This document shows, one piece after another, positions 10,770 to 12,505 of a DNA stretch of 64,000 bases. The DNA is from Brevundimonas sp. G8 (lineage in GTDB: Bacteria > Pseudomonadota > Alphaproteobacteria > Caulobacterales > Caulobacteraceae): the NCBI RefSeq assembly GCF_902506205.1, contig NZ_LR732816.1, positions 124,001-188,000 of the forward strand, in the 5' to 3' direction. Every line of letters begins with the position of its first letter. Within the stretch, counting starts at the first letter, position 1. Under the pieces are notes generated by a model. It was not told where the DNA came from, did not search any database, and was given only the letters and a program-made list of their open reading frames with translations. Position numbers and translations under genes: made by a program.

Positions 10770-11477
10770 ATGACCGCAACGGCGATCAGTCGAACGGGAC
10801 AGGTGCGGCTGGACTGGCGCAAGGCCGGGCTGGCGGCGACAGCCGTGGGCCTGAATGCCGGCGCGATCGCCCTGCTGTCCCTGACCGACCTCGGTCCGCG
10901 CAATACGCCGCTGCGAAGTGAGCCGATGATCGTCTATCTGGACGAGGCTTGGCCAAGGCTGACGCGCGCGCCGCAAGCGGTTGTCGACGCCGAGCGAGGA
11001 CCACCCGCCTTGGTAGATCGCGAAACGACATCCTCAGCGCCAAACGATTCGCTCAGGCCGCACATCCCCACGACGGCGTCTGTCTCGCCCTCGCCCAGCG
11101 ATCCCCAAGATGACACCATCGACCCACGATGGCAGGTCGGCCGGGCCGCTTCGGCTTCGGGAGGCCCGGTCCTGTCGTGTGACGGTCCTCATCTGCTGTC
11201 GCTGGAGGCGCGACGCCATTGCGACGAACGCTGGGCCGGGCGCGAGAACGTGCGCGCCATCGTCGGGACGGGCAATGCGGAACGCGATGCGACCTTCGCC
11301 CGGCACGGCGCGCGCCGTCTGGCCGCGTGGGAGGCGCAGCGCGCCATGCCAACCCGAGGCGATCCGCCGTGCGAACGCCCGAACCCGGTCTCCGGTTGTG
11401 AAGACGTAAACGTGCAAGTCGAGCTATTCTCCTCGCGGGACGGCTTCCTGCCCAATCTCAGAAAGCGCCGCGAATGA
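10770..11477 (+). CDS. membrane-anchored four-cysteine protein, paralogue A
   Basis: A 235-residue protein I cannot assign to a named family. Residues 16-40 (DWRKAGLAATAVGLNAGAIA onward) form one membrane segment preceded by a basic stretch, giving an inner-membrane anchor with a periplasmic body, reminiscent of TonB-like N-termini. A Pro/Ser/Thr-rich linker (about 50-125) leads to a C-terminal domain with four cysteines (137, 151, 201, 210) and the motif GTGNAERDATFARHGARRLA. The same motif and identical cysteine spacing (14 and 9 residues) occur in the next gene, which overlaps this one by four bases (ATGA). GGAGG lies five bases before the ATG. The pair is divergent from rpsL. Role unknown; the four cysteines probably form two disulfides in the periplasm. 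Confidence 0.72.
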   Translation: MTATAISRTGQVRLDWRKAGLAATAVGLNAGAIALLSLTDLGPRNTPLRSEPMIVYLDEAWPRLTRAPQAVVDAERGPPALVDRETTSSAPNDSLRPHIPTTASVSPSPSDPQDDTIDPRWQVGRAASASGGPVLSCDGPHLLSLEARRHCDERWAGRENVRAIVGTGNAERDATFARHGARRLAAWEAQRAMPTRGDPPCERPNPVSGCEDVNVQVELFSSRDGFLPNLRKRRE

Positions 11478-12298
11478 CCGCCCTGCCCCTGCCCCGCCCC
11501 AGACGGCCCGACTGGCGCAAGGCTGGGCTGGCGACCGCCTCGGTCGCCATCAACACAGCCCTGATCGCCTTCCTGTCTTTCACGGCCCCCGGCATCAAGA
11601 GACCCACCGTGGTCGCGGAACCGCCGCCGATCTATGTCGAGATCACCCCGCGCCCCCTCCTGCCCGACGAGCAGCCGCGCATCCCGGTCCAGACGCCCCC
11701 CGCCAGCGACGCCACGACGACGCCTCGCAACGCCCGCGAAATCGTCTCCGCCCCCTCTGCACGACAGGAGACGCCCCAGGACGTCCGCCCCGCCCCGCTT
11801 CGACCACGGATCGCCGCGCCGTCACCCCAGGGCGTCCCCGCCCCGCCCGACGCCTGGACGGTCAATCCGAACGACCGTTCGAACGCCATGGCCCGCACCC
11901 TGCGTCAGGGCCTGATAGGCTGCTCCACGCCGCAACAACTCAGCGCTGCCGAGCGCGCAAACTGTCGCGAAGACGCCATGCGGCGCGGCTTGAACGCCGC
12001 CCCGATTACGGGCACCGGAAATCCCGAACGCGACGCCGCCTTCGCCCGTGAGGGTGCGCGCCGTCTGGCGGAATGGGAGCAACGCCGCCGCCCGTTGTCC
12101 GGCGGCGTGGGCGTGGTCGGCCCGGCGGACTGCGTCGGCTCGAACTTCGGCACCGGCTGCGCAGGCGCTCAACTGCCTGACGTTCCCGGCGTGGACATGC
12201 GCCAAGGTGCGGAAACGACGATCAATCGAGGCGAACGTCGGCGTCAGGGCTTCTCGGCCAATATCGGGGGACTGCGTGTAGGCGGCGAGGAAGACTGA
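11474..12298 (+). CDS. membrane-anchored four-cysteine protein, paralogue B
   Basis: A 274-residue paralogue of the preceding gene, overlapping it by four bases and so translationally coupled. It shares DWRKAGLAT before a single membrane segment (about 13-36), a Pro-rich linker (45-125) and a C-terminal domain with cysteines 150, 164, 220 and 229. The spacing C-x13-C and C-x8-C is identical to the partner, as is the core GTGNPERDAAFAREGARRLA followed by WE. Between the first two cysteines both have LS-x3-R-x2-C (LSAAERANC here, LSLEARRHC in the partner). It also carries a Gly-rich tail ending NIGGLRVGGEED. The arrangement points to tandem duplication and possible hetero-oligomers. Function is unknown; a TonB-like or envelope structural role is only a guess. 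Confidence 0.75.
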   Translation: MTALPLPRPRRPDWRKAGLATASVAINTALIAFLSFTAPGIKRPTVVAEPPPIYVEITPRPLLPDEQPRIPVQTPPASDATTTPRNAREIVSAPSARQETPQDVRPAPLRPRIAAPSPQGVPAPPDAWTVNPNDRSNAMARTLRQGLIGCSTPQQLSAAERANCREDAMRRGLNAAPITGTGNPERDAAFAREGARRLAEWEQRRRPLSGGVGVVGPADCVGSNFGTGCAGAQLPDVPGVDMRQGAETTINRGERRRQGFSANIGGLRVGGEED

Positions 12299-12367: not shown

Positions 12368-12505
12368 TCAGTGGTCCTGACAGTGGATGTCGTGCATGAC
12401 CTCGCCCAGGTGCATGGCGGCGGTGGCAAGGCTGAAGTAGCCCACGCCGCACCAGAGGACCACGTTCATCGTAATCACAACGACCGACGTCCGTTTCTTG
12501 GGCAT
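12368..12505 (-). CDS. 45-residue single-span membrane peptide
   Basis: A small gene of 45 codons with an AGGAG ribosome site seven bases before its ATG. The product begins MPKKRTSV, continues into a hydrophobic span (about 8-30, VVVITMNVVLWCGVGYFSLA), and ends in a His/Met/Asp-rich tail with MHDIHCQDH. Positive residues before the span and the polar tail after it suggest N-in topology with the tail in the periplasm; two cysteines and three histidines are present, so metal or haem contact is conceivable but unproven. It lies just past the rpoC terminator on the same strand, so it needs its own promoter in 12506-12570. I do not recognise the family. Confidence 0.65.
   Translation of the reverse strand: MPKKRTSVVVITMNVVLWCGVGYFSLATAAMHLGEVMHDIHCQDH

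Follow-up and report, generated by a model that had tools for sequence, protein, structure and literature searches.

A protein family beside rpsL and rpoC in the Caulobacteraceae with a TonB/TolA-like N-terminal half, a different C-terminal end, and a tail in two forms

Two overlapping genes of Brevundimonas sp. G8, here called A and B, belong to a real, uncharacterized, and locus-conserved protein family that combines a TonB/TolA-like front half with a different C-terminal end and is not a member of the TonB family; its function is something that we infer. The genes lie in a 64,000-nucleotide stretch of DNA (the window), to which coordinates given without a locus or contig label refer. The most unusual feature of the family is the tail of B, which exists in two forms and which lies beyond the reach of a single-sequence reading.

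Results

Genes A and B are paralogues between the str operon and rpoC

Gene A (10770 to 11477, forward strand) is an open reading frame (ORF) whose product, of 235 amino acids, has an N-terminal span, a variable linker, a Cys hairpin, and the end VELFSSRDGFLPNLRKRRE. Gene B (11474 to 12298, forward strand) encodes 274 amino acids, with an N-terminal span, a Pro-rich linker, a Cys hairpin, a GSNFGTGC motif, and the two-form tail. The stop codon of A overlaps the start codon of B as ATGA (11474 to 11477, forward strand), and both the two reading frames and the overlap are present as the preliminary description had them. The str operon (rpsL, rpsG, fusA, and tuf), which had been named as the neighbor, does adjoin the pair, on the left and on the opposite strand, and rpoC lies to the right, likewise on the opposite strand. 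A and B are paralogues (36% identity, E 1e-22 by BLASTP) that follow the same plan, a single span near the N terminus and, after it, four cysteines, and they have in common the LS-x3-R-x2-C motif and the GTGNxERDAxFAxxGARRLA block that had been attributed to both. Because other genomes carry homologues at this locus and because the core of B is under purifying selection (dN/dS of 0.03 to 0.35 in 13 pairs), the pattern exceeds what chance would give. The best named relative of B is from Brevundimonas intermedia B-10 (97% over the best segment), as found with a tool that may omit the nearest records.

The family in other genomes

The family had been called unknown, and we found no significant match for it in Pfam, NCBIfam, PHROGs, PADLOC, or the PDB, profile searches included. 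In Pfam and NCBIfam, nothing came near the cutoff for A, B, or 10 diverse relatives, and 21 aligned cores gave a single chance match in Pfam (E 0.37). Two family profiles matched no PDB sequence, and A and B matched none of the phage and antiphage families of PHROGs and PADLOC. Carriage by phages or plasmids was considered and set aside, there being no match in collections of phages, plasmids, and viral contigs. Among the papers listed by literature searches, none showed the family; papers that use other wording could have escaped them.

The distribution searches covered samples of genomes rather than all genomes. With B as the query, 23 of 149 genomes of the taxonomic family matched, 22 of them from the same genus, the source genome included. 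Across the order, a core profile matched 76 of 398 genomes, distributed over 5 of 59 genera, the matches outside the genus being weak (E 1e-7 to 0.008). A wider profile, run on 385 genomes of the class, matched 15, 4 of them from the same genus or family and the other 11 at E values of 0.0006 to 0.006. Larger stretches were taken around 40 chosen matches and one more. Two weak profile matches (L091 and L092) were dropped, since by eye the plan was absent from both. Among 10 loci from the class-level and own-genome searches that were inspected, L120 and L133 (one same-family genome) are members and L123 has a similar plan; the others appeared to be chance matches or wrong-frame ORFs or had no family ORF.

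The family occurs through the Caulobacteraceae, mostly between rpsL and rpoC. We examined 53 loci and counted 45, leaving out a duplicate (L165, from the genome of L038), the false L091 and L092, and five loci situated elsewhere in their genomes (L078, L086, L093, L095, and L106). At 39 of the 45, the family gene and rpsL are divergently oriented; the remaining 6 show rpoC, with rpsL falling outside the fetched stretch. Wherever rpoC is in view (38 loci), the family gene is convergent with it, at a distance of up to about 4.7 kb in other genera.

The N-terminal span and the motor side

The membrane helix of A comprises residues 16 to 39 (10815 to 10886, forward strand; an AlphaFold2 helix), in which Asn29 (10854 to 10856) sits at a position like that of the TonB His, with Ala four residues earlier. 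The span of B, residues 18 to 36 (11525 to 11581, forward strand; from the sequence and the span alignment), carries Ser23 and Asn27 (11552 to 11554) in an S-x3-N pattern. Across the 77 aligned spans, two proteins with a cut-off N terminus having been excluded, this one position is His in 47, Asn in 30, and no other residue in any. The residue four places before it is Ser (57 spans), Ala (13), or Val (7), and Leu stands six places after it in 65. Exact S-x3-H is found in 38 of the 77 spans and S-x3-N in 19; in the 35 nonredundant spans, there are 19 with exact S-x3-H versus 1.57 expected by shuffling. At least 4 exchanges between His and Asn were counted on a tree of poor resolution, against a shuffle mean of 24, and the Asn variant is found in A, in B, and in a third paralogue.

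The consulted portions of PMC12215075, PMC8928145, and PMC12204202 describe the SHLS motif (Ser-x3-His-x6-Leu-x3-Ser) and how it contacts ExbB/TolQ, as well as the motor box of TonB and TolA. Neither A nor B has the full motif: B has its Ser and Leu and A its Leu, and the His and the last Ser are absent from both. Just 5 of the 35 nonredundant spans have SHLS with Ser or Thr at the last place. After the span, the B segment PIYVEITP (residues 52 to 59; 11627 to 11650, forward strand) would, by the N-terminal alignment, correspond to the motor-box strand of TonB/TolA, and a Pro follows a short hydrophobic conserved stretch in 33 of 35 rows (by eye). The motor-box stretch of A forms no strand in its AlphaFold2 model.

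When the family N terminus (35 rows) was aligned with hhalign to 10 TonB N termini, the probability was 83.9 and the score 30.5, and controls gave 18.2 and 18.2 (reversed) and 14.1 (the N termini of 10 other TonB_C ORFs). Related genomes supplied the TonB set, whose members are ORFs that overlie TonB_C matches; they were selected by eye for having His in the span, and 7 of the 10 have S-x3-H. The match takes in 28 columns of the span only, the motor-box stretch lying outside it. To call the TonB-like N terminus only a resemblance, as had been done, was too cautious, given a His or Asn in 77 of 77 spans and an N-terminal profile that beats its reversed controls. The likeness ends with the front half: Pfam scans found no TonB_C domain in A, B, or 10 relatives, and where a TonB_C/TolA domain would stand, the models predict helices only.

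The genome has four ExbD-type and four MotA/ExbB-type matches, and no motor genes were seen at the A/B locus. The Ser-x3-Trp stretch of the TolQ-like and ExbB-like proteins is kept, by eye, in six Asn-type and six His-type genomes, and the fixed differences between the two genome types lie outside it, in 11 of 239 columns (TolQ-like) and 21 of 310 columns (ExbB-like). Motor-side covariation with the His/Asn position was thus not seen at the Ser-x3-Trp site in these 6 + 6 genomes. Because this region looks the same in both genome types, docking gains no support from compensatory change; the comparison neither supports nor refutes docking. A TonB_C protein at L144 (G000:C1, about 2851635) lies beside exbB- and exbD-type genes and has a span without Ser-x3-His, so Ser-x3-His does not mark every TonB here. 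A further TonB_C match, with one in-frame stop, is found elsewhere in the same genome (G000:C1:275-463).

Tentatively, we favor the reading that A and B are TonB-like, possibly motor-coupled periplasmic arms with a non-TonB end and that the tail forms of B are exchanged binding specificities. It is only slightly less likely that A and B are static inner-membrane scaffolds or adaptors whose TonB-like helix, inherited or convergent, makes structural contacts only, with no coupling to a motor. The lack of any motor gene seen at the locus, the restriction of the full SHLS to 5 of the 35 spans, the absence of His from both window proteins, and a C-terminal end other than TonB_C would all suit a static scaffold, but a plain anchor has no need of a His or Asn that is fixed in all 77 spans compared across genera.

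Cysteines and the predicted hairpin

The cysteines of A stand at residues 137, 151, 201, and 210 (gaps of 14, 50, and 9) and those of B at 150, 164, 220, and 229 (gaps of 14, 56, and 9). The identical spacing that had been claimed for the two proteins therefore holds within each pair (14 and 9) and fails between the pairs (50 versus 56), a difference of 6 that makes the claim slightly overstated. In A, the first pair, C137 to C151, lies at 11178 to 11222 (placed by Cys positions and alignment) and the second, C201 to C210, at 11370 to 11399 (by Cys positions), both on the forward strand. The core of B (11849 to 12175, forward strand), delimited by the alignment, the model, and its low dN/dS, has three predicted helices and C150/C164, followed by GVGVVGPADCVGSNFGTGCAGAQL with C220/C229.

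The first two cysteines (C1/C2) are invariant in two alignments, A3 (53 rows) and A4 (36 rows). The last two (C3/C4) were counted in 51 B-type rows carrying the GSN-F/L-G motif: 40 have both, 11 have neither, and none has only one. Their presence changes only twice on the core tree (shuffle mean, 10), so their joint keeping or loss amounts to about two events. Outside the genus, most relatives have C1/C2 only; the exceptions, L107 and L120, retain a GSNLGxGC stretch. Two disulfides per protein, which the preliminary description had proposed, might be read into these patterns, which support them only indirectly, and the C-terminal part is probably a small helical hairpin stapled by C1-C2.

AlphaFold2 gave the core of B helices at model residues 9 to 22, 35 to 51, and 61 to 82 and a doubtful one at 119 to 134 (mean pLDDT, 66.2; pTM, 0.34; mostly low confidence beyond residue 88). 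In the model of A, the span helix is accompanied by helices at 145 to 160 and 170 to 191 (mean pLDDT, 64.4; pTM, 0.27). The C-terminal end of both proteins is thus predicted, with modest confidence, to be a small helical hairpin. Foldseek with the B core model returned no match in the PDB better than E 5.3.

The two-form tail of B

The last ~40 residues of B occur in two main forms, the split following GSNFGTGCAGAxL. Tail comparisons and dN/dS place the tail of the window B at 12176 to 12298 (forward strand); it is of form T1 (PDVPGVDMRQGAETTINRGERRRQGFSANIGGLRVGGEED), and T2 comprises forms such as NPSLAPDSTRNVQTRRDGHRAGGAPITPGASAPMERWKD. Among 51 distinct B rows, 17 are T1, 31 are T2, and 3 are neither, L171 having been scored as T1 by eye and T2 having been scored with a loose pattern that admits some divergent tails. 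In 101-genome samples of the genus, T1 matched 15 genomes and T2 matched 38 at E values of ≤0.001 (44 at ≤0.01), and no genome in these samples was on both lists at ≤0.001. Some tails were left unscored, for example the one in L069 (DPSMRQGATTNVQ); they combine features of both forms, so T1 and T2 may be alleles of a single element that diverged long ago.

Tail form hardly follows the core tree, on which it changes at least 12 times compared with a mean of 14.2 in 500 shuffles (63 of them at or below 12); the count is rough, as 17 of the 48 forks of the tree are open. Different forms occur in 13 pairs whose cores share at least 93% identity; the tails of these pairs are 21 to 28% identical, whereas the tails of 20 same-form pairs at matched core identity average 93%. 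The 13 pairs fall into three clusters of closely related sequences, one around L040, one around L055/L057, and one made up of L038 and L169. At the DNA level, six different-form pairs are 79 to 93% alike in the body and 41 to 60% alike in the tail; past the stop codon, they are again 87 to 94% alike over the first 100 bases, 86 to 98% over the next 200, and 96 to 99% over the next 500.

Three other accounts of the two forms were rejected. A switch by frameshift is ruled out by tail DNA that is only 41 to 60% alike while both flanks align. For a silent second tail, a T2 search of the source genome matched only B itself and, weakly (E 0.39), one other place. Tail form has no clear link to A, whose signature accompanies 6 of 16 T1, 8 of 31 T2, and 0 of 4 other rows, some of the loci being short.

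Each tail form is under strong purifying selection. Within forms, the dN/dS of the tail is 0.02 to 0.17 except in one of the 13 pairs, where it is 0.37; the tail value is below that of the core in 10 of the 13 and below that of the N-terminal half plus linker (0.11 to 0.51) in 11, in pairs that share sequences and whose synonymous changes are often near saturation. We consider it unlikely that the tail difference is neutral, a 3′-end island swapped by recombination between conserved flanks (the B core and the rpoC side): exchange would be easy, since the DNA past the stop codon is alike between forms, but neutrality sits badly with this constraint within forms and with the gap between 21 to 28% identity across forms and 93% within them.

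Gene arrangements and further paralogues

By hand counts on loci picked by family match rather than synteny, the 24 Brevundimonas loci with rpsL comprise 11 with A and B, 9 in which one B-type gene stands without A, and 4 others (L075, L099, L100, and L105). The 4-nucleotide overlap is listed at 7 of the 11 A+B loci, the window included; at the remaining 4, the listed B ORF starts upstream and the overlap is not readable there. The obligate A-B hetero-oligomer first proposed, with two disulfides in each protein, would suit the shared architecture and the ATGA overlap of the window and six other loci, but it is very improbable and not a general requirement, because a single B-type gene serves at 9 of the 24 loci, and in two genomes (L093 and L095) A-type genes without an adjoining B lie away from rpsL.

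At 4 of the 11 Brevundimonas A+B loci, a third paralogue of about 198 to 200 amino acids lies upstream of A (L032:4647-5243, L033:4263-4859, L034:4635-5231, and L035:3659-4261); it has C1/C2 only and a different end (YPGLRSLFGMN in L033 to L035). A longer paralogue of about 400 amino acids, with S-x3-H and C1/C2 only, stands beside the B-type gene or replaces it (L099:5437-6627, L100:5486-6736, and L105:4778-6043).

Other small genes share the locus. Between B and rpoC, on the rpoC strand, is a 45-amino-acid single-span ORF ending in MHDIHCQDH (12368 to 12505, reverse strand), and ORFs ending in MHDxxCxDH stand at the same place in several relatives, though not in all. A small lipoprotein-like TonB_C gene lies on the reverse strand between rpsL and the family gene at L037 (3598-4107), L038 (5576-5884), and L039 (4275-4595), with Pfam TonB_C scores of 32.0, 31.3, and 22.3 bits, respectively, the last below the cutoff of 24.6. 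L111 and L004 match our own profile only, L111 having no Pfam match. Overall, such a gene is present at 4 of the 24 Brevundimonas rpsL loci, 3 of them with some Pfam support, and none is in the window.

Discussion

In the motor-coupled reading that we tentatively favor, A and B would be anchored in the inner membrane and built in their front half like TonB/TolA. A short basic cytoplasmic N terminus would be followed by one membrane helix with a Ser-x3-His-type contact pattern (Ser-x3-Asn in B and Ala-x3-Asn in A). Then would come a conserved stretch placed like the motor box and a linker, rich in Pro in the case of B. At the C terminus, a small helical hairpin would follow, continued in B by a GSNFGxGC loop and the short tail. 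The helix would dock on an ExbB/TolQ-type motor, and the linker would extend into the periplasm, where the hairpin and tail could engage a partner; the alternative tails of B would then be two binding specificities exchanged by recombination. Motor docking, the transfer of force or signal, topology, the partner, recognition by the tail, and the disulfides are the parts of this scheme that we infer. In a bolder version, the proteins would form a family of periplasmic transducers coupled to the proton motive force (PMF) and separate from TonB, TolA, and the vWA type. Their tail would be a specificity module with two alleles that differ in function, that persist throughout Brevundimonas, and that recombination exchanges, with phages, bacteriocins, or a polymorphic envelope partner perhaps as the selecting agents. 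This version strikes us as improbable.

Should the front end really dock on a motor of the ExbB/TolQ kind, motor-driven envelope proteins would extend beyond TonB, TolA, and the vWA transducers, and the natural His/Asn variation would offer a test of the role of the conserved residue. A short constrained tail whose form differs between near-identical proteins suggests partner-specificity switching in a gene that adjoins rpsL and rpoC.

Among known systems, GltJ (NCBIfam NF033761) matched two relatives weakly over their span and linker (E values, 0.011 and 0.013; 14.6 to 14.8 bits versus a cutoff of 450), a similarity that probably reflects composition. As far as the consulted portions of PMC12215075 and PMC12204202 describe TonB and TolA, A and B resemble them in having a single span, near the N terminus, whose pattern recalls Ser-x3-His, followed by a conserved stretch, by a linker (Pro-rich in B), and by a C-terminal part that is presumably periplasmic. 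They differ in having a predicted helical Cys hairpin where TonB_C would be expected and was not found, in lacking adjoining motor genes as far as seen, and, in the window proteins, in having Asn for His. The genes of the vWA-type motor-driven transducers adjoin motor genes, according to the portions of PMC12204202 consulted, whereas none was seen at the A/B locus. The end of A and B is predicted to be a small Cys hairpin rather than a vWA fold; Pfam showed no match to such a fold in either protein or in 10 relatives, and the B core model had no match in the PDB. What A and B would have in common with these transducers, as that source presents them, is the combination of a proposed role in transmitting force, a TonB-like front, and a non-TonB end.
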